Source of the DNA: Odontesthes bonariensis
Taxonomy: Eukaryota > Chordata > Actinopteri > Atheriniformes > Atherinopsidae
Length of the DNA stretch: 64,000 nucleotides
NCBI RefSeq assembly: GCF_027942865.1
Contig: NC_134515.1
Span: forward strand, 28,820,449 to 28,884,448
Direction of reading: 5' to 3'
Under the pieces are notes generated by a model, which ran no database searches, was not told the origin of the DNA, and worked only from the letters and a program-made list of their open reading frames with translations. Shown piece by piece: positions 1-61,688 of this stretch. Numbering within the stretch: position 1 is the first letter of the stretch; the number at the start of each line of letters is the position of its first letter. A program made the translations under genes and the position numbers.

Positions 1-450
1 GATTGCTTCACTGTTGTGTCTCCAGTCCAGTCTGTTGTCCACATGAACACCAAGGTATTTATATTCCTCAACCACCTCCACTTCTTCTCCCATGATGGAA
101 ACAGGGTTTGATCTGACCCTGTTTCTCCTGAAATCTACAATCATCTCCTTTGTTTTGTTAACATTCAAGATGAGATGATTGTTCCCACACCATGCCACAA
201 AGTGGTCCACCAGCTCTCTGTACTCAGCTTCTTGTCCATCTCTGATACACCCGACTACTGCAGAGTCATCTGAATATTTCTGTAGATGACAGGAGTCTGA
301 CTTGTACTGGAAGTCTGAAGTGTACAGAGTGAAAAGGAATGGTGAGAGTACAGTCCCCTGTGGTGCTCCTGTGCTGCTGATCACCTGGTTAGACACACAA
401 TTCTTCAGTCTGACAAACTGTGGTCTGTTAGTCATTAATCCAGGTGATTG
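1..450 (-). mobile_element. non-LTR retrotransposon reverse-transcriptase fragment
   Basis: Read on the minus strand, the first ~450 bases give an open reading frame that enters from beyond the window edge. It contains reverse-transcriptase landmarks: GAPQGTVLSPFLFTLY, then a YSDDSAVVG catalytic-type box, then a stretch with KTKEMIVDF and a YLGVHVDN-like end. This is the palm and following region of a fish LINE of the CR1/L2/Rex1 kind. The clade is my inference. Only part of the polymerase is present and no endonuclease is visible, so it is a truncated copy or one cut by the window edge. Confidence 0.85.
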
Positions 451-10949: not shown

Positions 10950-13900
10950 ATGGAGAGTACAGAGGCTGTGACTCCAACATCCTCCCATGATAAATCCAGT
11001 CGTTTTTATCTCGTCACCTGGCTCAACAAGCTGCTGAAGACAAACATCAAAGATGTGCGAGAGACACGTTCAGGTGATTCATCCTAATACAGTTTTCCAT
11101 GTCCTTGGTTTAGCTTACTTTAATCACTAACAGCCGCAGTACATTATAGACTTTGGCCGTTTAACTGACTGTTAGACTGTTATACACCACAGGTGTATTA
11201 GAGCTGTGGTTAGGGGCCACTAATTATATTCAACTAATTTGGAACACCTTTGGGAAGAACTACAATGTATTAGTTACCGTGTTAGTATTTTCTTATGAAA
11301 TTGGTTTATATGTCAGTTATAGGCACAGTTTGTGCATATCGTTCTACCTTCTATCCTGCTCTCTTGAAAGATAACACCAAATCAAGGTTCTGACTTCCAC
11401 CAGCATGGCTTACAATTTCTGAACCATCTTTCTCAGGTGCGTGCCACTGTCAGATCATGGACTGCATTTTCCCTGGGTCTGTTGACATGACCAAGGTGAA
11501 GTTGGACGCACAAAGCGACGATGACTGTAGGCACAACTTCAGTTTACTTCAGGAGGCCTTCAGCAAGAAGGACATTACAAGGGTATGCACTTCCTTTAAA
11601 GAATAAATTAAATCTAAAAGAAGAGTTAATTTAAAAAAAATAATAATAATTTCGTTGTGAGGAAAAATAACTCTGAAAAGACACAGCAATGAATTTCCAC
11701 GGGTGTGTAAATCAAATTGTGCATTATTTATCCTAAAACTGCACGATACAAATAAAGTATAGAATCACAAAGTCTTTGGAAATTTGCTGTGCCTTGTTCC
11801 ATGTTTTCATATCAGTTTGATGAATAAGAACTTCAAGTTGAGTTGCAATACACAGCCATAAAATCATTGCCCTGTGCCACATGAGTTAAACTATGTGTAG
11901 TTTCATGACTGAAATTGTGTGTATGTCCAATATGTGTGTATGTGTATGTACACGTGATTTTGTGTTTGTGTATTTTTTATTTGATGTTCGTAAACTAAAC
12001 AAAGAAACTCAGCCAAAACTGTGAAGTTAAATAAGTAACAAGTGATCAGCTCTATAAGTTTGGAGCAAATGACCTTTCACGGGAAAACAATACGCGATTT
12101 TATGTGCAACAGATGAAAGCGTCATCTGCACAGTGTGCAGTCCTGCTTGGAGATTATCAGGAGGGAGACACAAGTGAAATGGATAATGCTATATTATTTC
12201 CTTTAGAGCCCTATGGAAGCCTATAAGTGTATTTTGACATGGCCCAGTTTTTTTTTCTTCGGGAGCCAGAAGATTATTTCAGCTCTAATTTTGTTACATT
12301 TCCACTGGGGTCTAAGGTTGGGGGTACATTATACAAATTTATCTGAAGTGTGTCGCTCCACCTCAACAGTGCTTGTCGGCGCTCTGCACATTCACGCTTA
12401 GCCTACGATAAAACCAGAAAGTCTGCTTCCATTGTAGTAACTCAGATCGTGTCCATGTTATACGCATTGTTTTTGCATCTGGTCCCTGAATTTAACTAAG
12501 CAAATTATCTGGGGTTGCTAAAGTTGGGTAGGTCTACTTACCAATGTTATGTTTCCAAAAACACGAGGCCAATTGCCTTCCTAAATATACTGCATGACCA
12601 GGTTTTGCCATCTAAATGTTTGTCTTTTGGCACTGGTTCTGCGTGCGCAAACCATTTCCACACATGGATTGGCCTCCACATAGTAATGTGGAGACCTTAT
12701 TTCTATCTTTATTTTCAATTAGAATAAGGTTTGCATAAAGCCAGCCCGACTCTCCTGTTATCAAGATGTGATTTAATAACGAAAGCGACTGTGGATGGAA
12801 ATTAATTTGACATTGCACACGTTTACCGAAACAATGCCTTGACAACATTTTGTTAGAATCCTATCTAAAAGGGGTTGAACAAAATATTTTAGTCTGGGAC
12901 GAATTTTTTGGTAGCGATGGCGAGAGCTGCAGTACGTTATTCTAACCTTTACAGAGTCTTGGTGTTCGGCGGGTTGCCTCGTAGTGACAGAGAATGTCAG
13001 CTGCTGAAAATATCACTTTTCTAAAACTAATATAATTTGTGAGAATTTTTGACAACCTCTTCCCATTGCTGCAGTATGAGGAGGTGCATCACAGTACAGT
13101 TGTAGTTTTCTTGTTACTGTGTTTGGCCATAAATTTTCATATCAACCAAACGAGCATGCTGCATTATTTTTAGGACAAAACAGCAGTGTGTGTTTGCAGC
13201 TGAAAATCTTTTTAATATCGTAGGTTAAGTCAGAGTTAGGAATTCTTTTTACAGAGTTGTTTAAAAAAAAAAAGTTTAATTGAATTCATTATTCTATTTT
13301 TTTTATTTTTTATGGTGTTATCTGTTGAATTTCTCTGAACAGCTGTTCAGAAGCCAAGTTCAGTCAGAGGATGGGATGGGATGCTTACAGTCTTGAGAAA
13401 CAAGATCACAGCCGTCTTTGATTTTTTACTGCGTAATAAAAAAAATAATTTGCTTACCTCATTTGAATAAGGTGAATACAACCTGGCATATTATCGTGTC
13501 TTACTCTTTGTGTTAATGTTCTTTTTCTTTCACTGCAGTAATCCACCTTCTGACAGTAGCTTTAATGATGTATTAACAAAAGGAACATTCATTGTGTCAT
13601 CCTACTCTATAGAGACCAAATGTAACTAACAGGCGCAAACTTAACACATGGAATTTTACTTTGACTCACAGACTTCAGCCGAATTCTCTGCTGTGAAAGT
13701 AGTAAGCTATAATATTCTGAGCTGTCATGTACTTAATTTGTTGTGTCTTCTTTGCATTGATACAGGCCATTCCAGTTGAGGACCTCATCAAAGGTGATTT
13801 TAAAAGCAACTTTGAGTTCGTGAAGTGGTTCAAAGTTTTCTATGCAGCAAATGTGAAAAGCGACGAGTATGACCCTGTGAAAACTAGGAACATCCATGAA

Positions 13901-16900
13901 ATCAGCCCAGTTCTAAGACCTCCCCCCTCATGTAAGTTTACCTGAACTCTTCTGATCTCTTTTATGATGAAATTAGAGGGTGTTTTTTGTATTTTGATTG
14001 CCACACAACGCTTGAACAGTAATGTTTCTTCTATTGCTTTGTCAGGGAAATCTAAATCGGAATCAGACGTGGAAAAGGACGACAATGAAACATTGAGAAA
14101 AGGATATCCTTACACTGAAAAGTGGAAGGAAACTTTTGAATGGGCAGACCGTAGTACTCTTGGAGAAGAATTTACCTACTGCTCCACGTGTCACACTAAA
14201 CTCCACACAATTAATAAAGGGTGTGTTGAACTTCAGCGACACGAGGAGACAAACAAACACAAGAAAAGGGGTGACATTTCCAAGAGAGTTGGCCTGCAAA
14301 GCCAAGTCCCTAAGCCGCTGCCATGTAGCGATGCAGCCGCTCGGTTCATTCGCAGTCACTGTTACACTGGATCTGCTGAAGGTGAACAGATGTCGAGACA
14401 TTTTATACGCGGTAAGCTAGGGTTGCAGTACCCCAGAGACATTGCATCTGTTTGCCAAACCACTCCTTACTGCATTTACATTTATGGAGGTGTAAAGGTA
14501 GGAAAAGATGACACTGTTTCCGTGGTCCTTGTGGGGTTTTTTGATGTTGAAGCTTCCAGCCACTGCATCCGATTTGTGGATGCACTTGAGTCGGTGGATG
14601 GTCCAGGAGATCAAACAGCTGCAGCAGCGGTGCAGACCTTGAGGAAATTTGAGCTATCCACAGATAATCTTGTTGCTGTTTATTTCAGAGGCAACAGTGT
14701 GTCCTCAGAGCAGATCTGCTCGCAGCTCAGAGAGCTCAACCCAAACATAGTGGCCTTAAGTGACCTGTACACCATTGCTGATGTTGCTTGTCATGCTGGG
14801 GTTAAGGAGCTCTCCAATCAGGCTCGAAAGTTGATAGCTGACCTTCATGCATACTACGTGTCCTGCTCTACCAAAAATGATGACCTCAAGGCTCTTTTTG
14901 GCTCAGATGTCAGTAAGAACGGCTCATTTTACTTCAGCACCAGCTGCCTTAAATTTTGCCTGTTGGTCACAAAAATCTTGGCTATATGGACAGATCTCGC
15001 CTTTTACTTCAACTCTTGTCATGAACTCGATATAAAAGCCAAGTTAATCTGCTCCCAGCTGAAAGATCCCAAAGTCATGGCAACATTTCTCTTCCTGGAA
15101 CAGGCCTTGAAACCTCTGCAAAATTTTCAGAGGCAAACACATGGAGCTTCCTGGCCTAAAATGCTGCACGTCCTAGAAGAAGCCAGCTCCCTGCTAGACA
15201 CATACACCTCTTATTTCCTTCAGCCGCATGCTGCCGTTCGCTACCTCAAGGACCATGATGCTGAAATCCTGAAGAACAAGAAATCCCACCTCTCAAGTGC
15301 TGATCTAAATTACGGTGGGAAGGCTGTGGAAGACTTCTTGAAAACTCCAGAGGCCGCCGGGACTCTGCCTCAGTTACAAGAAGAGGTGCTGTCGTTCTAC
15401 ATTGCACTCACAAATCGCATTGCAGAGGGGTTGCCTCTAAGTGACAGGGTGTTAAAAAGCATAGCTCATCTACTAAACCCTCAAAAAAGGATGAAAGTTA
15501 CACGGAATGCAATAGAGGAGCTTGGGACCACCTTTGGAGCCTGCAGCTCCCCTGAAGAGGTCAAACAGCTCACACAGGAATTCCTTGAGAAAAAAATGGC
15601 CGAGCAGGGTGAAAGTGAAGAAGGAGTCGAGGACGAGACGACATTGGTTCCACTGGAGAAGCATTGGGTCAGGGTTCTGAAAGACACCGAGCCTACCTCA
15701 GTCTTCAGGAAGCTCATTTTGACCCTGCTGTGCTTCCCGTGTCCTCCTCTTGATGCCCAGCAGGTTTTTACTCAGGTATGTTAGCAGATGAGCTGTGTTG
15801 CCATGATTGTCCATGTTGACTTTTTTGAAAGTTTAACTAATTTTATTTACTTGGTGGCTGTACGTCCTATCTAAGACCTTAGGGAATGATGCCGCCGAAG
15901 TATTTTCGGAGGGCGAATCCTCAACAGAGAGCGAGTGTGACGCCATGTCTGACAGCACCAGCAGCAAGGACTCCCATGTTCACACTCGTGGTATGACAAA
16001 ATATACTCCATTAAACAAGAACATTCCATTTTCATTCAATTCATTTTAACAAACTAACAATTATATCACGTTGCATGATGTAGAGGTATTTGCTGTTTGA
16101 TGAATGTGTAACCACCGTGATGTGCTTTCATTGTTTACCTCATGTTATTACACTCTTATGCCAATTTTTAGGAATAAACGGTCTCGATGCGACAGTGAAG
16201 TCATGTGAAGTCCGCCTCACAAAGCTAAAGTGTAAGATGGACAATTATAGATTTTTATCTGCAAATCTGTGTTAAAAAACTTTTTTTTTCGTTGCCGGAT
16301 TATGTGTTTGTAAGTGAGAAGAGGTTATCGCAACGAGCATCATGTTCAGGATCTTGTAAACCTTCATTCTTTCACTGTGAACTCACCATAATTCAGTTAT
16401 TATGTCTCTGATTTTAATGCTGAAAACTTACTTTTGTTTTCAAAGTTCCACGTGGTGGTGATGAAATATCTGGATTGAATGGCACTTTGGCGCGAGAGGT
16501 AACAAGATTTCCCTCCATCTTAATCTTCCTTCTCTTAACCAAATACATCTACACTGAGAAGAAGCTATAGCTTTTGTGACTTCAGAATGTGATTTCACTG
16601 TGATTCAAGCCTATTAGTTGACTTGAATATTACTGCCTACTATGATGCCTGAAAGCAGAACAACACAGAAAAATATTAGTATTTTGGCCTGTGGTATTTT
16701 TTCACGCTTTGGTCTCATGTACGAACAGCTTATTGGCTTTTTTTTTAATTTTCTTTTAAATGTGGTTGATAGACTCACATGTGTGATCAAGTGCAGTTTG
16801 CCTACCGGGGGGGCACATGTGTTTTGCATCAATTTGAATGTGCAAGAAATTTGGGTGTGTAATGAGACTGTGTTGTCTCTCAGGGGACCTGTAGGGAAAA

Positions 16901-19900
16901 TTTTGGCTGAGTGAGCGGCTTGTGGCAGAAACCACAGACCCGTACAGTGTTTCAGGTTGGTGTTAACACCTGGTCCGAACCCATAGGTCTTGATAAGGAC
17001 AGCAAAAATGGTCCGGAGTCCAAAGATGAGGGGGAAGGTATAGTCATGTGAAAAGGAAAGCGCAACCTTTCTCTAATCCCAGTCTATAAAAAAATCTTAT
17101 CCTCACCAAGTTTTAAAATTAGATTAAAAAAAAACAACACAAATAACAGAAATCAAAACAAGATTGGTGAGGCACAGAAACCAGGAGATATAGACCTGGT
17201 GAACATGGTAAAGAATTTAACCTTTGCAACCTACAGAGGAAGTAAACCAGAATACTTTGGTGTACAGGACTTAGTGGTCTCAATGACTACAAGGTGTTCA
17301 GGTCCTGTGGCTACAAAACAAGCCCAAATCATCAGCCTTCCACCACCGTGCTTAACAGTTGGTATGAGGTGTTTGTACTAATATGCTGGGATTGTGGGTT
17401 TGTTTAGTTTTTTTTTGCCAAACATGCTGTGCACCATGACCAAACATCTCCACTTTGGTGTTGTTTATACAACATTATTACAGAAGTCTTCTGGTCTGTT
17501 CAGATGCAACTTTACAAACCTAAGTTATGCTGCCTTCTTTTTTAGAAAGAAAAAGCATTCTCCCGGTAACCACTGCAAACAAGTCATACCTGTTCAGTCT
17601 TTTTCTTAATGTACTCTCATTAAATGAATTGCTTAGTGCTTAGTGCAGCACACCATCTACAGGGTCTATCTACAGTACCCATCAACGGGGTATTTGCATT
17701 CAATCAGTTTCCTTAAAGGGCTTAAAAAGTAGATAACGGGCTTCTGATATGTAAAGTATTAGTATTAAACGGTGACTCATCACCGTCCACAGACAGGACC
17801 TTCCATGATGAGTTTGCAGATCTACAAGAGAAACGTGTGTGCTGTTCAATAGCTTAGAGTGGGGCTCATTGTAAATACAATCAATAGGTTTGTGACAGGT
17901 CTGCATTTCAAGTGGCTGTCTGAAAAGAGCATTCCTCACTGAGCATGGGAGAGGGCAGATTGAGTGATGGACATCCAAATCGCAGTCTTTAAGGCTCTGT
18001 GATAAACGGCGTCTGATCTGACAATGATATCAAGTTTAGTTTGAAAAATGCATCTCGAATTTAATGTTCAAATATATCACTAATTTATATCAAATTTCCT
18101 TTATGGTCACGAAACAGCTTATTATATTAATATTGATACACTGTTTAAAGGCTCCCTCGCTTCTTGTTTTAAATCAATTAAATTAACAAAAAAAAAATGC
18201 CCTCGTCTACGTTGTCTGCTATATTTTGTTCTCATTTGACGTTGTAATTACGTTTGGCTTTCAGTTCAAAGAAAAATCACCTTCCAGTAAATCCACACCA
18301 ACCAGAGGACGGCGCAAACATTCCTACCAGGTAACGTAATCACCTCCTTGTTAAAAAGATTAGGAAATTGCCTCTTAAGTCTACCACCGAGTCAAAGTCA
18401 ACACTTGTACCAGACTGTTCTGTGTGTTAGATCCTTTGGGATTAATCTGCTTTTTGTCTTTGTTCCCCAAAGGATGGGAAGGGGTTTCTGACTGGGGAGC
18501 TGGTGTGGGGCAAAATAAAGGGCTTTTCCTGGTGGCCGGGGTTGGTGATGCCATGGAAAACCAAGAGCTCTCCCCCAGGCATGCGGAGGGTGGAGTGGTT
18601 TGGAGATGGGATGTTCTCTGAGGTTAGAAATGCAGCGCTTGGCTGTTTGTTTTGCTGTTTATTTGTTCAGGAGACAGCAAACACTTCACAGATGTTTACA
18701 TCGCCAATGGTTTCTGTTGCAGATCTACACGGAGCGACTCTACCCATTTAGAGCCTTTAATAAGGGCTTCTGCAAAAACTCCTTTGCCAGTTTGCCCATG
18801 TACAAGAAAGCCATCTACCAAATCCTTGAGGTAATCAAAATATGTCTCTGTTTTTTGTTTGTTTGTTTTGTTCTGAAGCCAGCATGTAAAGTGATTGATT
18901 TACATACATGCTCTTCTGTGCAGTGCCTGTCCTCACACTTCCTCTTAACGCTATTCTCTTTGCCAAATGCGTTATGGCCCTTTCAGACCAAACACAACAT
19001 GCTCTGCCCTCGCCTCCATTTTGCTTTCTGTATCTGGGTGGACAGCGTGAAGCAAACCTGTTTGATGATTTGCCTCATCAAAGTCATGTCATGCGTGACT
19101 TTAGAGCTAAACGTCTTTCCACACGGTTGATGTCCACAGAGGATTGGTACAACAGCAGCATCGATGATACGCTGAGTCTTTGAGTTGCAGTGTTGGGCTG
19201 ATGATCTCCAGTTGGTCAATCAATGTGTAGAGGATCGTTAAAATGCTGGGCAAAAAATAAGTGATTATTTACCGTCCAGAGGGAGAAGTCAACATCTCTG
19301 GAGGCATCTGGGATGGACCATCACACAGTAGAATCACGGGTTGGGCTCATTATGATCTGTTTTTAAGATATTTTTTTGAAGAAATGGAGGCCATGTGCTG
19401 CGAACCACGAAGTAAAAGGATCTGTTATAAACAACAAGTTCAAAAGCCAGGCCATGTGATGGTATGGGGCTGTATTAGTGATCTTAGCAAAGCTCATTTA
19501 CACTTCTGTGATGGCAGCATCAATGCAGAAAAGTGCACTGAGGTTCTAGAGCAGCATCTACTTCGATGTATCGTTCAAGGCTCCCTTAGAAAAATGTCTT
19601 CTCCCGCGACATGTCAGTGTAAAGCCTCATTCTGCATACGTGACAAAGGCATGGCTGAGGAGGAAGAAGAGGGTGCATACACCGCACTTGGCTGCCTGCA
19701 GTCGTGATCTGTCGGGTCAACTCCAACTTAAGACACGTTGGTCGATAAAATAGGACAGAAAGCAACTGAAACACTTTATCACTGGAAATCCTCAATGATG
19801 TTGTGAGAAGGAATGGCAGCTTTACAAAGCAGCAAAAGCTTTACCGTCCCAACTTTCTTTGAGGTGTGTTGCTGAGCTAAAATGCAAACGTGGAGGCGGA

Positions 19901-22900
19901 CTAACAAATCAGATGTAGTTAACGAGAGAAATTGTGTCTTGGCCTCAAACTTGTCAGGTGTACAGGTTTTCTGTAGCGTCCAAACCTTTTCTGATTTGGG
20001 GTTGTAGACCGCCTTCAGCACGCTGGTTTGAAAATTGAATTCAGTTAAGCTGTGGGCAAGCAGCGAGGTGGAAAGTTGTGCGTACGAAGTGTTTGACTTT
20101 TCTTTGGCTTTAAACAGGATCCAATGAAAAGACTTTCTGATTGAAGTAGAAATGTGAGCAAATTTGTATGGTGAAAAAACAGTCCATTCATCTTAGCCCC
20201 CGTCTTTTGTTTCTTAACGGTGAAAATAGCACGAAGCGTGTCGTGGTTCTTTGGGCTTTTGCCTGTTTAGACCAAAGAGAGTAAGTCAACACAGTTTTGC
20301 CCCACAATAGAAAAGAAGGAGCTGCGTTTTGTGCTGTGTCATCGGTATCTCAAAAATGGTGAACCCTTTTAAAAATGGCGAGGATTTGCGCTTTCAAACA
20401 ACTCCTAAATGTATTTTGAAAAAAGATACTCAGAATGATTCAAAACAATGCAGCGGAATGTGGTTGGTGAGTATTACTGGACAACAGCACGTAACATGCA
20501 ACGCTTTTCTCATCTCTGTTTACTTGTCTGGTTGTTATTTTTGATGTTTTTTATGTAAGGTTGAGTAAATCTTTTGCTGTCGCTCCAGATTTTGATCACA
20601 TTGGTGTTTGTAGTTGGCAGGTGAGCGATGTGGGAAGTCTTTTGCTCAGGTAGAGGGTGATAAAGAAAAAGAGCTGAAGATGATGGTGGACTGGGCTTCT
20701 GAAGGATTCCTGCCTCATGGACCTGAGCGACTGTCACCTCCTGGTATGTTCATGTTCTCAAATCTTCATTAGTTTGATTGTCATCAGGGAGGGCAGCTTC
20801 GTGAACGCGTGAAGTACTTTATGGCAATCATTTTTACGGTCCGCCATATTAAAAGCTCACGCAGTATATATAGGGCGAGTTTACAGCTAAAGTATTAGAT
20901 TTTTTTCCTGTTATCCGTCTTCGTCGTCAATTTACCTTTCCTTTTGGAATGCCGGAAAGAAGCAGAAACACAGTTTTTTTCTGTTTTCCTGTGCTTCAAA
21001 GATCCCACAGCACATCAAGAATCTGATGACACGTCGATGTCGGAATACCAGCCCCCACCAAAAAGAAAATATGTGTATAAGAATAAGGCAAACGCGGTCA
21101 CCATCACCTACAACAGAGGTTGGTTGTAGTTTTGATCGATTTCACAGATATAGAAAGATTACGTCATCGTTAATCATCATTGTTCTGATTTGTGGTCTGT
21201 TTTTCATATTTTCCTTTACAGAATCAATCATCGCGAACCTCAAAGAGAAAGGCAAAACCATCGAAGGTAGGTGTAGCAGTTTGTGGTTTAAAGTCGTTGG
21301 CATGAACACTAAATCGGGGATATTAAGGACATGTTTCATTTCAGATTTCTGCTTGTGTTGTGCATCGTCTGAGATCGATGAGCAGCACCCGTTGTTTGAA
21401 GGTGGTCTTTGTCTGAAATGCAAGGTGATTTATTAACACAACGGTCCTCATGTGTCTACGTTATGCTGTCTGTGTTCGACCATCCGAATCCCAGCTGCCA
21501 CGAACAGTCGTTGTGAACGATTCTGTCGCTTTTTGCAGGACAACTTCACAGAGACGCTGTATCGCTACGATGACGATGGCTACCAGTCGTACTGCACTGT
21601 GTGCTGTGGAGGTACAGAGGTCATTCTGTGTGGCAACCCCAGCTGTTGCAGGTAAGCACGTGCCAGCAAATGAATCGGCTCGGTTTATCTCACAAGCTCT
21701 ATTTATTTTTTTAAGCAATTCATGACACACCTGTGAATTTAATCACCATCCACCTGCAATCAGGTGTTTATAAAGGGGGGCACTGAATGTTCGTGTTATT
21801 GGACATAATCCCAACTCCTGCATCCTATAATACTTTAGAGTATAAAATAGATGAAAAGCTGCGTGCTCTAATTTATTTATTTTTGGTTCAAAGTGAAGGA
21901 ATCTGATGTTAATGAGTGTCGCTGTGATTGCTGTTACTCCAGTTGTGGACAGCTAATCAGCGTAACTAATAGTAACGCTAACTGACGGTTTATTTGCCCC
22001 TCTTCCTCTTTGTCTCTGAGTTCTGAGCTCGGTATTTGCTAGTTGTCATCACAGAAACAAATACAGTTTGTTTTTTTCCACATCCCAGCATGAATTTGTT
22101 TTATTCTAATAAATAGTTTGCCGAGATATTCCCCCTCATTACCCTTTTGTGTGCAGTTTGATCTTTCCATCACGCACGCCTCACTCTGGTGGCTTCTGTC
22201 TCTTCCAGATGTTTCTGTAAGGAGTGTCTCGATATCCTGGTGGGCGCAGGAACTTTTGACAGACTAAAAGATGTCGACCCCTGGAGCTGCTACATGTGCG
22301 AGTCGTCACAGTGTGAAGGAAACCTTAAACTCCGACCAAACTGGAGAGTTAAGATCCAAGACCTTTTTGCCAACAACAGCGCCATGGCGTTTGTAAGTAC
22401 CACACCTGTATTACATGCTAAGTTTGTAAAAATAAATTTAAGCTAAGTCTCATTGAATAGTGGCTTCAGCAGCTGAAGAACATTACGCATTTAGGGAACG
22501 CGTGTCTGTGTCACAGTTGTCTCCTCGGTGGGGTTTTTGGTTTGAAATTGTAAAAGCTAGTTAAAGGTCTCAAATTATAAAGCCAGTCATTGTCTAAAAC
22601 CAGTATAAGAAACCTAAACCCTGAAGCACAGAGTGAGTGCAGAGAGTTGGCATTAAAATGAAGGCATTTCTGAAAGCTGAACATTAATGTGGAGTCTGCC
22701 CACTGCTAATTATGAGCTGATAAGCTGCAGAGTGTGCTTTTTACACCATCACGGAAGTTAACTTCAGGGCTCAGACGTAAGACTTCATTTCTCAGATGCT
22801 TTTCACCAAACTGGATTCATGGCTTCTGCCGCCCCATGTCGGTTTTGAACACTGGGACATCTTTATGTATACTCGTCTCTGTCTGGGGGTGAAACTCTAT

Positions 22901-25752
22901 ATTATAAAATTTGTATAAGTGATTCGTAAATAATAAGGATAGATGGAGAGGTCCTAGTTATTGTGACAAGGAGACTTTCTCATCTGGAATGCATTATATA
23001 CACATGTGAATTCAGGTCTAAGTAAAGATTTACCATTATATCTCACTTGGTACACACAGCTTGCTCACTTTAAACAGCTTGTGATCCTGGACTGTTGGCC
23101 GTGCGCACAGAAAAGTCATCAAACACGTCACACGTGCTAATAAATTATTTAAAAAAAGCTTTACACGCGTCAGTTATTATTAACTATTGTTGTGCTTTCC
23201 AGTTTAATTACTGGCTGGAGCTCGAAGGAGGACTGAATGTAAAAAATGAAATGTTTTTAAATATGCAGAAAATGAGATTGCACTGCCGCCACCCTTCATG
23301 TTCGGGTAATATAAATGCAGTGACCCCCATTCCCCTGCCGTCTGAGGCTCTGTCACAGTCACAAGCTCACGTAGAATTTAAAGTTTCATATCTGGAACGA
23401 GTTTAGGAGAAAAGCAGAGATTTGAATCCATTTTTCTTCTTAAATGTATTCTTTTTTTTCATCACAGGAGCCTCACAGAGTTTACCCCCCCATCCCTGCT
23501 GATCAGCGCAGACCAATCAAGGTGCTCTCGCTTTTTGACGGCATTGCAACAGGTGGGTTGTGCAAACAATGTTATTTCAAACCAAATCAGCCAGTATCTT
23601 TGACAGCCTCTGCTAAAACATTTGCCAGATTCGAAAATTCAAATGACGACAGTATACAAAGACATTTTAAATGTTCTCCTTTTTTTTTATTGACAATCTG
23701 CTTATAATTATCTTGGCATCCCGGCAGGATATCTGGTGCTCAGAGACCTTGGTTTCAAGATCGAGAGATACATAGCTTCGGAGATTTGTGACGATTCCAT
23801 TGCAGTGGGAATGGTTAAACACGAGGGGAGGATTGAGTATGTCAATGATGTTCGCACCGTTACAAGAAAACACGTGAGTACAGCTGCAGAAACACGGCTC
23901 CGTATGTGAATCTGACACAGCCCGACGGGGCTGAAAAGGGTGTTACGGTGTAAACTAAAATCAAGCTTTGTGTCTCTTAGCTGGCTGAATGGGGTCCTTT
24001 TGATCTGCTGATTGGAGGCAGTCCGTGTAACGACCTTTCCATGGTCAACCCTCTTCGAAAAGGATTATTTGGTACGCAGCTTCTTAACTTCTCTGAAAGG
24101 CTTTCTTTGTTTTCTTGCATGCCGAACTTAAAGGATTAAACTAAGTTGCTGTCAGGTTCACTCTCCCCTACGCACGTAAACTCCTCTTTGTTAACTTTCT
24201 GCCCTTTCGTGCGTGTGTGTCTTTCCTGCAGAGGGGACTGGAAGACTCTTTTTTGAGTTCTACCGCATACTGACCATGCTGAAGCCAAAGGAGGGAGACA
24301 ACCGTCCATTCTTCTGGTTGTTTGAGAACGTGGTCTTCATGAGTTCAACCGATAAATCGGACATCTGCCGGTTCCTTGAGGTAGTCACCTTTAATTGGTG
24401 GTCAGAGTATTCTGTCACCCTGATGAAAGTGAACAAACCGTTTTAACGCTCAATATTTGCATTGTTTTTTGTGTGTTTTTTCCAGTGTAATCCAGTTCTA
24501 ATCGACGCAGTGAAAGTCAGCCCTGCTCACAGAGCACGCTACTTCTGGGGAAATATACCCGGCATGAACAGGTATGTACTCGCACTGACAGACTGAAAGA
24601 TGATAATTCTGTCTTGGAATAGTCTGTTGAGTTCACACTTCTGTGTTTTCCTGTAGACATCTCGCTGCATCTATCGATAAAAAACTGACTCTCCAGGATT
24701 GTTTGGAAGTTGGGCGCCTGGCAAAGGTAGAAGCATTTGCTGTATATATCGTTAGCATTATTTCCTGTGGCGTTTTGTTTTTACGGTTGGCAATGTGAAC
24801 TGTCAGCATTCTTAAACCCGTTTTTGTTTTTGTAGAAGCTACAACAAAGGTCTGTTGAGGTTAAACTCTTGACATGTCAAACTTGTCGTCTCTCCCTGCA
24901 GTTCGACAAAGTCCGCACAATCACAACAAAGTCAAACTCTATAAGGCAGGGCAAGATGGGGTCGCTGCCTGTAAACATGAACGGCAAAGAGGACTACCTG
25001 TGGTGCACGGAAATGGAACAGTAAGTACTGTGGACAGAGTGGTGTCCAGGCAGACGTTTTTGGCTCTGCGTCGCACCTTTCTGCATGTAAAAACAATATT
25101 GTGTCATCTAAGGTCTATACATGAATATGAATCTTTATGATTCAGTTTTACTAGAACATGTCTTCTGCATACAAACCAGGTTTCAGACAAGAAATGATAA
25201 AAATTGCAGCAAAAACTTCCAAAAACGTTCAGAAGGATTAAGATCCTCAATGTATGACTGCAAAGAGTATCAGTCGTTCCAGCATTTGCAGAGCACGATA
25301 ATGTGAAAAGTTTCAGAGACCTTCTAAAAGACAGCGGGCCTATGTTCTGTGGTCAGAGTCCTCAGGACTCAGGTCCTTGGGCATTGTAGAGTCCCATGAT
25401 TTTTCCAGGAAATCCTTGTTTGATGTTTACATTGGGGGGCTTTAAAGGCCGGACTTGAAGAAAGGTGCTCAAATAAGCTGGAGCCGTCATGGCTTTCATG
25501 GCCAGAAGGGTGTCAACCGATCAGAATGTTGGTCTGAGATGTTTTAATACACACACATTAACTTTTGAGATTGAGTGTAACTTTGTTCTCCATGTGGTCT
25601 CCTCTTTAAGGGTCTTTGGCTTTCCCAAACACTACACAGATGTGAACAACATGGGCCGAATGCAAAGGCAGAGAGTCCTGGGTCGCTCCTGGAGTGTTCC
25701 TGTAATCCGTCACCTCTTCGCCCCACTGAAGGATTATTTTGCATGTGAATAG
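10950..25752 (+). CDS. dnmt3bb: DNMT3B-type de novo DNA methyltransferase with EB1-type CH and hAT-transposase-derived N-terminal regions
   Basis: Coding exons: 10950-11073, 11437-11582, 13766-13931, 14046-15775, 15876-15990, 16446-16498, 18265-18330, 18473-18622, 18723-18830, 20614-20743, 21002-21118, 21222-21266, 21345-21424, 21539-21651, 22209-22392, 23468-23552, 23728-23873, 23981-24071, 24232-24380, 24486-24571, 24657-24726, 24902-25020, 25611-25752. They total 4215 nt in one continuous frame, 1404 aa. Residues 1-145 form an EB1-like calponin-homology domain ([34 protein letters not shown]). Residues 146-722 are hAT-derived. The PWWP domain ([16 protein letters not shown]) is about 801-886 and the cysteine-rich ADD domain about 969-1109. 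The methyltransferase spans about 1110-1404 with motif I FDGIATG, the PCN nucleophile Cys about 1202, ENV about 1248-1250 and the C-terminal [11 protein letters not shown]. The catalytic core looks intact. The family adds 5-methylcytosine to unmethylated DNA in the nucleus. The start ATG is the first in its exon and precedes the CH fold. The symbol follows zebrafish usage; the exact paralogue is not settled. Confidence 0.93.
14046..15775 (+). other. single 1730-nt exon encoding a degenerate hAT transposase within the methyltransferase gene
   Basis: This exon supplies residues 146-722 of the dnmt3b-like protein and has no internal stop. It starts with an acidic linker, then a zinc finger Cys191-X2-Cys194-X16-His211-X5-His217 preceded by a [11 protein letters not shown] stretch, typical of hAT and other transposase-derived proteins. 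The body has the predicted pattern of an hAT RNase-H-like fold ([12 protein letters not shown], then [12 protein letters not shown], then [15 protein letters not shown]). The positions where active enzymes carry D, D and E are not conserved. The end, [14 protein letters not shown], resembles the hAT dimerisation motif (LP.SNA..ERVFS) and is cut by the splice donor. Its length is 2 modulo 3, so skipping it would break the frame: it is not an optional cassette. The family assignment is by eye; the domesticated status is inference. Confidence 0.75.
16172..16229 (+). other. exon-like segment that does not fit the reading frame
   Basis: Bounded by an acceptor (tttttag) and a GT donor, it would read [20 protein letters not shown] after the preceding exon. 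Its length (58 nt) would put a stop codon into the following exon at 16446. Leaving it out keeps the gene open, so I excluded it from the coding model. It could be a poison exon or chance. Confidence 0.25.
17039..17640 (-). mobile_element. Tc1-like element remnant in a dnmt3b-like intron
   Basis: The minus-strand text matches the central part of fish Tc1-like elements. This includes the passage corresponding to an arrangement like CTCATACCAACTGTTAAGCA and the GACTGAACAGGTATG region near 17590. Many small indels and stops disrupt it. The orientation is opposite to the host gene. A candidate inverted-repeat end with ATAGTCATGTGAAAA lies at 17040. Confidence 0.65.
19265..20015 (+). mobile_element. 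Tc1-like transposase remnant in the intron after the PWWP exons
   Basis: The segment around 19435-19580 reads [15 protein letters not shown], followed by an aspartate-poor version of the usual [14 protein letters not shown]-like passage, which is characteristic of Tc1/IS630 transposases. Further on, the GTCCCAACTTTCTTTGAGG passage at about 19845 and the terminal GATTTGGGGTTGTAG at about 19995 match the 3' end of this fish repeat. Frameshifts make it inactive. Confidence 0.7.
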
Positions 25753-31453: not shown

Positions 31454-43436
<11,983 letters not shown>

Positions 43437-44049
43437 TTTTTGTTTGTTCTTTCTTTCGGTTCACTTTTGAAACAGGACTTTGGCTTTCTAAATCAATATG
43501 AGCTAAATATTTGCACACTTAATTAGGTCCGAGATTCACAGCTGTTTGCGGAGGTCCGACTAACTGCTCTGCATCTTGAGGACTAAAACTTTTCCTCAGC
43601 CCTGAGACAGAAATCTGTCACACTAAGGCAGCTGACTTCCGGTTACCGTGTCCAAAATAAGACCCTCTCACATGTTAAATATCATGGTGATCCACAACTG
43701 AAATTATGTGTAAACGTGTCTAATTGTGTGACTTAAACAAAAAGAACACTGTAAACGACATAGGATTTATCAAGGTCATTAAAAGATATTTCCCCCAATT
43801 AAAGTCTCAAAATCAACAACCAAGTACACTATCTCACATTCTCCGTCATATTAGATTAGATTAATGTAGGAGAGAGAAAAGTGTTTGGAAAAATTTAAAA
43901 AATAAATTAAATAAAACAATTCAACACTCAATGATTATTGTAGCCTATTGCTTGACTCTAATTTAAACTTGATAACAATTGGAAATTATATCTTATTAAT
44001 GACAATTTTATACATCATTACTGATTAAATATCATAAATCAGCCTTGTT

Positions 44050-55439: not shown

Positions 55440-56574
55440 GTGAGTATAAATATGTTATTTTTCACCCGTTTTCAGCTCTAAACACAGGCTTCAGCTACTT
55501 GTTTGATACGAGGGTGTAAAATGTAAAATCTGGACTCATTTGTGGCCGCTTTGAGCTGTAAACAGGCTGCTGGCCGCAGGATGCAGAGTCATCTGTGGTG
55601 CGTCTGCGGCCGAAGTCTGCTCCAGTTTCTGTGTTAGAATGGGAGCGCTGGGATAGTCTTGTTCCAGGTTGTTTTAATCTAATCTGCTTCTAGATCTCGA
55701 TCTTTGTTAGATTAGCGTCATCTCAGGGTGGGAGCTTTGTTTTTGCCTGGTTTATCTGTATCTTCACATTAAACAGACGAGGGGGCAGCAAAATTAATCG
55801 TGCAATCGAGACCGAATAAAAACGACTACTGGTTAAAAGCAGGTGTTTAGGGCAGTTTTAAAGTTTGACGTCAAAACTGTTCTCATTCTCCATCGTGGTT
55901 ACACAAACAGCTTGTCTCATTCAGATCATTAAAAAAAATGTTTTTTTTAAATCGCAGCTTAATTTTTTAGCCAAATAAAAAGACAATGAATCACCAACTA
56001 TTACTGTGATAATCATCAGGCCTTGAGTCGTCTTAACATTTGATGGTAACGTCAAGGTCCATAGCTTGACTAAAAGACATTTGGTGAGTCAGCTGTATGT
56101 TTATTAGTTTGCTGACAATATGATTAATTAATTGCCCAAAAGCAGTATTACGTGATTCATTGTTCCTGAAAATAGTTGTTAGTTGCAGGTTGTGCAATTT
56201 GATCTGTTGTTCTGTTTTTTTTTTTTTTTTTTTCCAAGACTTCAGGTGAAATGCAAGGTGAGAAGAGATGGATAAACATGGAATAATTCTTGAGTTAACA
56301 CGGTCTGCTGTAGAAACTGTACACCATGTTGAAGATATTCGTACCTGCATACAGTAAAATAATTTAGTAGGCCTAGATGAATAAATATAGGGAGCACCTA
56401 TTGAAGGCACAGAGAGGACTAAAGCTGTGTTGTTCTGTTTTTTTTTTTTTGTTTTTTTAGCCTGCTAAATTAATTGCATTATTGGATGTTGTATTTATTT
56501 GATTATGTGATAATAAAGTGATATGTTTGCATTGCAGAACTCCTTCCTCCCTGCATCAGTGCCCCCTCCTCATC

Positions 56575-59500
56575 ATGGCATCTGGAGCTCTGTTCCCCAG
56601 CATGGTTTCTGGCTCCCGCGGCTCCTCCAGCAAGTACCTGGTGGAGTTTCGGGCCGGGAAGATGACCATGAAGGGCAGCACGGTGACTCCTGACAAGCGT
56701 AAAGGTCAGGTCTACATCCAGCAGACCGACGACTCCCTCATCCACTTCTGCTGGAAGGATCGGACGACCGGAAACGTGGACGATGTAGGTGGCGCAGCCC
56801 GCTTGTTTTAGCAGCTGACGTGCAATGGGCTTTTTAAAAAAAAATTTATAACACTTTTCACGTTCCCATTTAGGACCTGATTATTTTCCCTGATGACTGT
56901 GAGTTCAAACGCGTTAACCAGTGCACCACCGGCCGAGTTTATGTGCTGAAGTTTAAAGCTGGCTCTAAAAGACTCTTCTTCTGGATTCAGGTATGCAGCT
57001 GCTCCTCACACAACCCTATTAGACCCTGTAATCGAACCACTTCTTTAGAATCGCATGATGTCTTTTATTCAAGCACCAAGGTGCATTTTAAATACTTAAA
57101 CCATTTATTTGAGTGTTTTGAGAGTATTTTGGTAAATGGGGCTGCACGGTCGCCTCACAGTAAGACGGTCCCTGGTTTGAATCCCGGCTGGGGCCTTTTC
57201 TCTGTAGAGTTTGCATGTTCTCCCCGTGTATGCGGTTCTTCTCTGAGTACTCCGGCTTCCTCCCACCCACCGAAAGCATGTATTTTATGTTAAGTGGTGT
57301 AAACTAGGAGTGAGTGTGAGCGTGTATGGTTGTGGGTCTCATTTGTGTCTGTGTGTACCTGTGATGGACTGGCGACCCATCCAGGGTGAACCCTGCCTTT
57401 CGCCCAATGACAGCTGGGATAGGCTCCAGCCTCCCCACAACCCTAAATTGGATTAAAGGGGAACTGCGGTATTTTCAACATTAAGCCTCTTTTCTGAGTC
57501 GTCTGCAATGTTTTAGAACCCCCCTCACCGCTTTTTTGATGTTTACTGCTGTCTCCGGTATTTGCCTAATTTTGATTCTTCTCAACCTGCTTCAGAATGG
57601 CAAGTCATGCGCATGTCCACAAAGGTCCGTTTTTGGCAGCTCGTTCATGCTCGCACTATTTTCTTAGCGGTGGCGGAGTAATATCAACGAACATCCAGTA
57701 CAAAATGTATAATAAAACACAACGGAAGCAACTTTTCGCCACGAAATTTGATATGGATTACCAGTGCACACCAGTAACCACTCCGGTGAGTTGTTTATTT
57801 TGAAAACGGACGTTTATTGTGCTTTTACGGACCTTTTTGGACATGCGCATGACTTGCCATTCTGAAGCAGGTTGAGAAGAATCAAAATTAGGCAAATACC
57901 GGAGACAGCAGTAAACATCAAAAAAGCGGTGAGGGGAGTTCTAAAACATTGCAGACGACTCAGAAAAGAGGCTTAATGTTGAAAATACCGGAGTTCCCCT
58001 TTAAGCGGGGATAGAAAACGGATGGATTTTGGTAAATGCGTCCCACCGTTTTGCTCTTCACAGCTTTTTATGTGCATTGAAACCAAATTTAGCTGAAATG
58101 TAATCGGTCTGTACTGCTTGGATTACAAACAGGCCATGAATGGAAAGCATTAACTCCTACAGCAAGTCTGTTTCTCCTCCAGATGCTACTTTTTACACAT
58201 GTCACTGCTAAACGCTTTGAAAACGCTTTGTATGATAAATGAGTGAACAGTTTCAGATAAAATATCTGCGTTGTTTGTTCTGATCCCAGGAGCCAAAGAG
58301 CGATAAGGATGACGAGTACTGCCGCAAAGTGAACGAGTACCTGAACAACCCGCCCATGCCTGGTGCTCTGGGCAGCGGTGGCAGTGGAGGACATGATCTG
58401 TCTGCACTGGGAGGTAAAGGCACCCATATTTTAACCCTGTCCTGAAAAGACTTTAATATCCCCACCTTACGCTGGGTTTCACCTGCTCTCTCTGCTTACG
58501 TGTGAAGGTGAGGGCGGTCTGCAGAGCCTTCTGGGTAACATGAGCCATAACCAGCTCATGCAGCTTATTGGACCAACAGGACTGGGAGGGATTGGTATGT
58601 AAATCCTTAATTGTGTCTACAAGCTGGTAAGCTGACAGTGTGGAAACATTTGAAGATGCCATCTTGTTGGGTCAGATTAATAATGTGTCTTCCTGAATGT
58701 CAGGTGGTCTCGGGGCGCTGGCTGGTCCAGGGTTGACCAACCTTTTGGGTGGCAGCAGCAGTGTTTCTGCAGCCAGCAACTCTACCACAAGGTAACATTT
58801 TTATATTTGTGTTGTTAAAGAAACTGTCTTCTTCAGTACCTGTTTGATCTATAAGGTTACTGCTTAATGATATGCTCCATATTGACTGAAAAATAATTTG
58901 TGACATTCAGGCATGTGGAAAAAAATAAGTGCAGCCTCTTGCAATTCTAAGGTTTCACATGTAGGACGTCATAAAGAAAAATCCTCTCATCTTGATTAAC
59001 TAATCATCAGCAGGTGTTTTGGCAGTTTGTGTGTTAACACAATGCAAAGGACGAAAGACATCAGCAATGATCTCAGAGAAGCAATTGTTGCTGCCCCTCA
59101 TCCTGGGAAGCGTCATAAGGCCATTTCCAAACTATTTCCATCATTCTACAGAGAGAAAGATTTGTCACACGTGGAAAACCACAAGTGGACATCCCAGCAA
59201 GTTCACACCGAGGTCAAACAGTGCAGTGCTCAGAGAAATGACAAAAAATAAGGAAGTACAGGGATTCATGTGTTAATGGAACAGCTCCCATCTACTTGAA
59301 TGCTCTTGCAAAGGCTTAGAGGCACTTTACACGGAAACGAAAACGGGTTAAAAACGCAAATTCTTTTTGCGGATGCACTATATCGTTTAGATGGTAACGG
59401 TGTTTTGGGGGCATGAAAACGCAAAAAAGTGAAACCGCCCTCCGGAGTGGAATTCTTAAACGCTCCACTGTCGCGCCACCGTGTAAAGGATGAAAACGCA

Positions 59501-61688
59501 AAACTGCGTTTCTCGTCACATAGAAATGAGTAGAGAAGTGAAAGACTTGGTCTTGGTAGTGTTGCCACCTAGCCATCTGGCGTGTTTACTGCATCGATAA
59601 ATACGAAACGTCACACACTTTTGCGTTTCCGTATGCGCGCAGATTTTCACCCTAAAACGCTCGTCTAAATGCAGATTTAAAAGTGCAAACGAAACGCCAC
59701 TTTTGCGTTTTGGTTTCAGATCGTTTCCATGTAAAGGTAGCCTTATTACACAACCCGGTCACTCCGGTCGTCACAGGATTGTCGTCCAGCAGTGCCTACA
59801 CCACGCTTAAGACGATCCGGACTCTTTTCATGTGTCGCTCCACGATGGTGGAATGACCTTCTGAGTGCTACCAGAACAGGGGCGTCTCTGTCTAGCTTCA
59901 AGAAACTCTTGAAGACCCAGACCTATCCCAGCACTTACCCTGTACTTCCCTGCTCCCTCTACTGCATTTTATCTTTCTGTACTTCCATCTATATCTGCAC
60001 TCTCTCTCTACACTGTCACCTCTGGCAAAGTCTGACTCGTGGTTTCCTTCTATGTAGCTTATTGTTAGCATTGATGTTAGCTGTAATTTTATATCCTCAT
60101 TTGTAAGTCGCTTTGGATAAAAGCTTCTTAAATGCATAAACATAACATCTCAGCCCGCAGGCCTCAGTTAGCATGTTAAAGTTCATGACAGCACAATTAG
60201 AAAAAGACTGAACAAGTATGTTTGGAAGAGTTGCAGGAGAAAAAGCCTCTTCTCTCTTAAAAGAACATGGCAGAACAACTTAACTTTGAAAAGATGCAAC
60301 CACATGACTTCTGGGATGATATCTGATGTTTGGCAATGATACAGCGTCATGTTTGGCCAAAATCAAACCTCTCATACCAACTGTCAAGCATGGTGGAGGA
60401 GGGCTGATGATCTGGGCTTGTTTTTGCAGCCGCAGTTCCAAACACAGCTGCATATCTAGAAAATGACTGAAAAACAACAGACTCAGGGTGTTTAAATAAG
60501 CCAGTCAAAGTCCAGACCTTAATCCAACTGAAATGCTGTGTTGGGAACTTAAGAGAGCTGAGGGGATTGGGCCAAAATTAACCTCCACGAGAATGCGAGA
60601 AACTTACGACATACAGAAAACGATTACTTCAAGTTATTGCTGCTTGAAGTGTTTTTTCTGAAACTGTTGAGTCATGGGGTGTAGCTAGTTTTTCACACAC
60701 TGCTTCCTCACCTTGTTTTAGTTTAGAATATGTAATGACGCGGTGAAATATGTGCTCTTGGTCATCAGAGGTTGAATTTACTGCTCCTATTTATAAATTC
60801 TTAAATGGGATTTGGTATTTAGCTAAAAAGCTTCTTTTTTTAGTTCAATATTTACCAGCTAATATCTGTGCAGATTATCGCCAAGCTGCATGCAGCTAAC
60901 CTTAGCACGATGGGCTTATCAGTCTATAACCTGACTGAAAACAGAAAATGGTCATTAAAATGGCCCAAAGTGATGCTCAGTCAAACTAAGACGGAGAAAA
61001 GGGGATGAGAATCTTAACACTGGAGAATCTGCAGCCAGACAGCATTTCACAGTCGGAATAGTTGAAGAATTCTCACATCGGCTTGTCTTGCATCAGTTGT
61101 TCATTCCACCATTTACTGAACGCATTAAATGAAATCAAATTGAATGTAAAAAGGACTTTCTTTATTTCCCCTCTTTCCTCTCAGTCCGTCCACGGCTGTC
61201 ACACCCACCTCCACCACTGCTGCCAGCCGGCTCGGCTCCTCACAGGTGCCCACCACTCCCATCACTCCCTCGGCCACCACAGCGGCCTCCCCTACAGCCA
61301 CCACTCCCTCCACCCCTGCTGTGTCCTCCCTGGCAGCCGCGGCGGCAGCAAACCCCACGCAGCCCATCCAGCTGAGAGACCTGCAGAGCATCTTGGCCAC
61401 TATGAACGTACCTGCTAGCGGCCAGGGAGGTGAGGAGGTGGACACAGAACACGGCAACAGGACAAAAACCACATAATGAAAACTTTATTACAGAGAATGG
61501 ATGATCGGGTCTAATTGGAGGGATTTTGAACTAATTATACCGCAAATAGCAAACAGCTTTGTCACAGGGTCCATGATGCTGCTTAATTTGAACACAACAG
61601 GATTAGTTTGTGGCAGAATCAAGAACCCTCTGAGAGTGATGCAATGTGTCATTGCTTTGATTTCATTTTACTCTGCGCTGAACAGGTC

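Follow-up and report, generated by a model that had tools for sequence, protein, structure and literature searches.

Site choice by DNMT3 DNA methyltransferases is usually attributed to chromatin readers such as the PWWP and ADD domains. Mammalian DNMT3B shares these two domains and the catalytic domain with the gene described here and has, to our knowledge, no part derived from a hAT transposase. It also lacks the CH domain with which the present protein begins (PMC5320511; PMC records are cited throughout for the parts of them consulted). The CH domain of teleost dnmt3ba and dnmt3bb.2 is already in print (PMC5513168, PMC6976628, PMC5320511), which bears out the mention, in the original prediction for this locus, of CH-containing Dnmt3b paralogues in zebrafish. 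Teleost Dnmt3ba (zebrafish dnmt7) is probably the same gene as ours, with CH, PWWP, ADD and methyltransferase; in the consulted parts of these publications, both it and Dnmt3bb.2 are described with CH, PWWP, ADD/PHD and catalytic domains only and no transposase part. In Monopterus, the dnmt3ba cDNA encodes 1484 aa, and an antiserum raised to residues 125-280 showed the protein to be more abundant in testis than in three other organs (brain, spleen and kidney) and stained chiefly spermatocytes (PMC5320511). Residues 125-280 of the 1448-aa Monopterus database protein correspond to the end of the CH domain, the finger and the beginning of the body discussed below. The catalytic domain of zebrafish Dnmt3ba has been employed in dCas9 methylation editing (PMC13205079).

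Transposases joined to host genes have been described elsewhere, as in SETMAR, KRABINER and CSB-PGBD3, SETMAR combining a histone methyltransferase with mariner and CSB-PGBD3 combining CSB with piggyBac (PMC12062965). The gene reported here resembles them in that its exon 4, derived from a transposase, is in frame with the host exons and kept across species, but it differs from SETMAR and CSB-PGBD3 in joining a DNA methyltransferase to a hAT element and in keeping both finger and body. A literature search for a transposase part of dnmt3ba, with most subscription papers outside its coverage, returned no paper describing one. Words for a transposase are absent (0 occurrences) from the main text of PMC12191198, PMC5513168 and PMC13205079, and 'transpos' occurs once each in PMC6976628 and PMC5320511, where it belongs to the title of a cited work on DNMT3C. 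Both the gene and its CH domain are known, and the transposase part appears to be undescribed within the literature searched.

A probable dnmt3ba gene in 24 exons

The gene was rebuilt from the raw sequence of the window, i.e. the whole 64-kb stretch of Odontesthes bonariensis DNA that was analysed. It occupies 10950-25752 (+), where 24 exons join in a single open frame of 1424 aa, with GT-AG at the internal junctions once the start of exon 5 is corrected to 15876. The single frame and the extent of the locus had been predicted correctly, whereas the count of 23 exons and 1404 aa has to be revised, the 20-aa gap being the size of exon 6. Exons 1-3, all (+) like those that follow, encode residues 1-145, an EB1-type CH domain that starts in exon 1 (10950-11073, residues 1-41, with the ATG at 10950), continues in exon 2 (11437-11582) and ends in exon 3 (13766-13931). 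Exon 4 (14046-15775) encodes residues 146-722, comprising a hAT-derived C2H2 (BED-like) zinc finger and a degenerate hAT transposase body. An acidic and serine-rich linker in exons 5-8 (15876-15990, 16172-16231, 16446-16498 and 18265-18330) leads to the PWWP domain in exons 9-10 (18473-18830), followed by a PWWP-ADD linker in exons 11-12 (20614-21118), the ADD domain in exons 13-16 (21222-22392) and the C5 DNA methyltransferase domain with the stop in exons 17-24 (23468-25752). Taken together, Pfam, PDB-sequence and profile comparisons support this order of CH, finger plus hAT-like body, PWWP, ADD and methyltransferase, just as first proposed.

PWWP, ADD and C5 methyltransferase stand in DNMT3 order, and the six Pfam families found on the whole protein include PWWP (E value of 2e-11), two ADD models (3e-26 and 2e-23) and DNA_methylase (1e-14). 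The PCN, ENV and other motifs, which we take to be the catalytic motifs of DNMT3 methyltransferases, are present in the translation as read by eye. The gene apparently encodes an intact DNMT3B-type de novo methyltransferase. Many of the listed relatives are annotated as 'DNA (cytosine-5-)-methyltransferase 3 beta, duplicate a', and a SOGA1/MTCL2-like gene, named by eye, lies at about 33400-43500 (-); soga1 fits the dnmt3ba neighbourhood published in the consulted part of PMC6976628. By these two marks, best-match names and by-eye synteny, the gene is probably the teleost paralogue dnmt3ba of spiny-rayed fishes.

Other features of the neighbourhood were likewise named by eye. An ADRM1-like gene lies at about 56500-61500 (+), a frame resembling a broken Tc1/mariner transposase is found in intron 10 (19261-19707, +), and a frame at 1-450 (-) resembles a piece of LINE reverse transcriptase. 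There also seem to be Tc1-like pieces near 59000-59250 and 60350-60577. Within the gene, the stretch 16884-17039 (+) resembles an ortholog segment ('..SLRQKPQARTVFQAG..TWSKP..') but has an in-frame stop, so that including it in the transcript would cut the protein short. The TVFQ[AV] motif of such a segment is found in 56 of the 120 listed relatives, and is missing from P0001 and P0005.

That exons 1-4 might belong to another gene and have been joined to the methyltransferase exons by an artefact of modelling is barely conceivable. It is true that the model was read without a transcript of O. bonariensis, and that the protein of Leuresthes tenuis to which it corresponds (P0001, 1283 of 1424 aligned columns identical) is an annotated prediction flagged LOW QUALITY by its source. 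However, the coding frame of exon 4 (1730 nt) is free of stops, whereas each of the five alternative frames contains 18-40. Exons 1-4 start in phases 0, 1, 0 and 1, and exon 4 lies between phase-1 and phase-0 junctions, which means that leaving it out would put the methyltransferase out of frame. In addition, at least 80% of all five parts (CH, hAT, PWWP, ADD and methyltransferase) is covered in 108 of the 120 listed relatives, and the Monopterus cDNA mentioned above encodes 1484 aa (PMC5320511). A separate gene was rejected on the frame, the P0001 model and these five-domain relatives.

The CH domain is recognised by Pfam (E value of 2e-7, with a CAMSAP CH match on the same stretch), and 51 of 126 residues are identical to those of EB1. 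The predicted kinship with EB proteins is upheld by the PDB-sequence search, in which all 13 matches at E values of at most 0.001 are EB-family proteins (EB1, EB3, Bim1 and Mal3), the best at 2e-32. The CH domain is what the gene has in common with EB1/EB3 (MAPRE); the C-terminal domain of EB1 is not among the six Pfam families. The suggestion that CH tethers the enzyme to microtubules fares less well. Seven EB1 lysines, which we picked as presumably important for microtubule binding, were followed in 21 orthologues. Lysine or arginine is found at the positions of K60 and K89 in 16 and 19 orthologues respectively, but at those of K59, K66, K95, K100 and K113 in only 0, 0, 3, 0 and 1. Five of the seven positions are thus mostly non-basic, unlike in EB1/EB3, being basic in 0-3 of 21 orthologues, which makes plain microtubule-end binding doubtful. 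This CH domain might now serve protein contacts more than microtubule ends. It might also derive from a neighbouring mapre1 (EB1) gene: mapre1b belongs to the dnmt3ba syntenic group of teleosts (PMC6976628), although it was looked for in the 64-kb window and not found there.

Exon 4 is homologous to hAT transposases

Exon 4 has no significant match in a Pfam search and no match in a PDB sequence search. When 68 family members were scanned singly against Pfam, zf-BED was returned for four and the Spin-doc finger for three, with best E values of 0.022 and 0.028 that are no better than those of families present by chance among the 48 returned. Dimer_Tnp_hAT (PF05699) gave no match in the window exon, nor was it among the 25 of these 48 families listed for the 68 members. 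The Pfam search of the N-terminal residues that had been proposed recovered the CH domain but not the transposase, which was seen by profile comparison instead.

For this comparison, a protein search with exon 4 (7999 candidates scored) provided at least 68 proteins with 40-68% identity, none of them named a transposase and 65 without a name, so that some may come from elsewhere than dnmt3ba, and 67 of these 68 were combined with the window sequence into a profile. The hAT set was gathered with a hand-composed query sequence, which gave at least 495 matches among 8000 scored candidates; 59 of the best 120 were aligned (alignment A3), 44 of them carrying the Pfam Dimer_Tnp_hAT domain. The comparison concerns one hAT clade ('FSIAHGGR..DI..H...KHK'), picked for its by-eye likeness to exon 4. 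The two profiles align colinearly over 510-516 columns with a score of 89-92, a probability of 96.8-97.0 and an E value of 9e-11 to 3e-10 for a single comparison, while 40 column shuffles score at most 27.6 and the reversed control 26.65. Taken separately, the finger scores 47.4 (E value of 1e-6) and all of exon 4 past the finger 64.4 (E value of 2.7e-7; at most 26.3 in 40 shuffles), the N-terminal half of the body (exon-4 residues 120-330) reaching 63.9 (E value of 4e-8) on its own. Residues 330-576 alone (25.9) and the last 52 residues (25.8) are at control level, so that the C-terminal part is backed only by its position in the colinear alignment.

These scores show that exon 4 is homologous, in sequence, to hAT transposases over finger and body. 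The predicted hAT origin of both parts is thereby supported, each being significant separately and the whole far above shuffled and reversed controls. The idea that exon 4 could instead be an unrelated or fast-evolving linker finds some comfort in the silence of Pfam and PDB, the identity of only 14% in the profile alignment and the control-level score of the C-terminal part, but it is very improbable in view of the colinear match and the separate significance of finger and body, and was rejected on the profile scores set against the controls. That an entire hAT transposase is present was too strong a wording: the alignment does run from residues 7-8 to 574 of a 640-aa hAT transposase, but residues 330-576 are not significant alone and residues at the inferred catalytic positions are mostly lost. 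What exon 4 has in common with the hAT clade is the finger spacing, the colinear body and a W and P..F stretch near the C-terminus. No hAT transposon or hAT family close to exon 4 was found in the protein searches.

The finger region (14105-14266, +) contains the zinc ligands C45, C48, H65 and H71 (exon translation numbering). All four are present in 65 of 67 rows of alignment A1 and 62 of 68 of alignment A2, the exceptions being gaps; in A2 the six exceptional rows are reading frames of 470-536 aa, which fall short of the length of exon 4. The transposase body has been treated differently. Of the hAT columns, 62 are shared by 95% or more of the 59 transposases; exon 4 aligns with 53 of these, and the hAT residue is retained by most exon-4 sequences in 16. 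The hAT residues D165, D232 and E570, which we take by analogy with Hermes to be the DDE triad, are kept in 0/67, 33/66 and 1/67 exon-4 rows; the window sequence has R at the D232 position, but half of the rows retain D232, so that its loss is not general. C266 (1/67) and H269 (0/67) of the C..H motif and R328 (1/67) of TRW have also gone, and exon 4 therefore does not have the DDE triad, C..H and TRW motifs of an active hAT transposase. A finger kept together with catalytic positions mostly lost is the pattern of a domesticated transposase.

Age and conservation of the fusion

A search with the whole protein (7999 candidates scored) gave 198 matches, the best 120 of which are listed (1266-1514 aa, some species more than once). 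At least 80% of exon 4 is covered in all 120 of these listed relatives, as compared with 120 for PWWP, 119 for ADD, 118 for the methyltransferase and 110 for CH. Polymixia is among the 10 listed relatives in which less than 80% of CH is covered; gaps occupy 46 of 124 CH positions in its protein (P0106), which might be a prediction gap or a real loss. The listed relatives include Polymixia, Lampris, Centroberyx, Myripristis, Thalassophryne and Genypterus as well as tuna, flatfishes, cichlids, pufferfish, medaka and silversides, and 119 of the 120 bear fish names that we recognise as spiny-rayed, the remaining one being P0073.

In a quick, midpoint-rooted tree of 89 exon-4 sequences, Polymixia, Lampris, P0152, P0163, P0186 and P0187 fall on one side and the other 83 sequences on the opposite side (support of 95 for each), and the window is joined to Leuresthes (100); the branches of four rows are long, and 21 forks lack support. 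P0186 and P0187, both related to exon 4 but devoid of the ligands of the finger, pair together at the end of a long stem (0.78) and cluster with P0163, close to Polymixia and Lampris. Judged from general knowledge of fish relationships, the tree presumably follows the species order for the most part. It is as would be expected from a single capture before the spiny-rayed radiation, and we infer that such a capture, of a hAT transposase, was followed by vertical descent. In the simplest scenario, a hAT element would have landed in an intron that precedes the PWWP exons and have been spliced in to give a host-transposase fusion, the activity for transposition then being lost while a fold for DNA binding or oligomerisation was retained.

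Median identities to the window, computed for 21 of the 120 orthologues, are 89% for the methyltransferase, 81% for PWWP, 76% for ADD and 65% for CH. The two halves of the hAT body reach 64% and 62%, the finger stretch 56% and the linker of exons 5-8, the least conserved region measured, 42%. The hAT body is thus more conserved than the linker and about equal to CH. The finger stretch (14087-14275, residues 160-222) is at 56% against 62-64% for the body, though its ligands are fixed where the finger is present, as if the contacts of the finger were drifting.

Possible roles of the captured module

The architecture and the homology are established by the comparisons above, and targeting is what they suggest. 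On balance, we consider it probable that this locus is a dnmt3ba gene with an EB-type CH domain and an old captured hAT, which would serve a de novo methyltransferase as a module, itself non-catalytic, for targeting or scaffolding. The module would recruit the enzyme to places in chromatin additional to those that PWWP and ADD select and might steer de novo methylation, most plausibly in the male germ line. That the transposase part targets specific sequences, as first proposed, would fit the retention of the ligands wherever the finger is present, but Lampris keeps the body without the finger.

Lampris also bears on whether the module reads DNA. In P0114 of this genus three of the four zinc ligands are missing, and in P0091 two (gaps in both cases), while the body is kept in both; P0114, and P0091 in part, may thus be seen as a natural experiment on the role of the finger. 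It is quite possible, though we would not assume it, that the hAT-derived part is a scaffold for dimerisation or protein interaction only and reads no DNA sequence. This would agree with a body that is kept in P0114 where the finger is lost, that is better conserved than the finger stretch and from which the inferred catalytic residues have mostly gone. However, the four zinc ligands kept in 65 of 67 rows are hard to explain if the finger has no role.

More specific versions of targeting have also to be weighed. The captured transposase might direct the methyltransferase to its own or related hAT transposons, making the protein an enzyme of germ-line genome defence. The hAT origin of exon 4, the germ-cell signal in Monopterus testis (PMC5320511) and the binding of DNA by other host-transposase fusions (PMC12062965) are consistent with this, but the protein searches found no close hAT family and cognate copies may be extinct after so old a capture. 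We regard this version as unlikely, and transposons related to the element as weaker candidates for methylation targets than chromatin sites in general. A little less doubtful, but still held only tentatively, is a broader proposal in which the captured hAT provides a DNMT3 enzyme with a sequence-reading module of its own, guiding germ-line methylation to hAT-like or other motif-bearing sites, and has been kept since about the origin of spiny-rayed fishes.

If this last proposal were true, a DNMT3 enzyme would be directed by DNA sequence in addition to histone marks, which would bear on the long-standing question of how these enzymes choose their sites. A natural, long-lasting fusion of DNMT3 and transposase in a large vertebrate group that includes a laboratory species, medaka, makes sequence-directed de novo methylation testable by deleting one exon, and it adds a DNA methyltransferase to the partners recruited through transposase capture.
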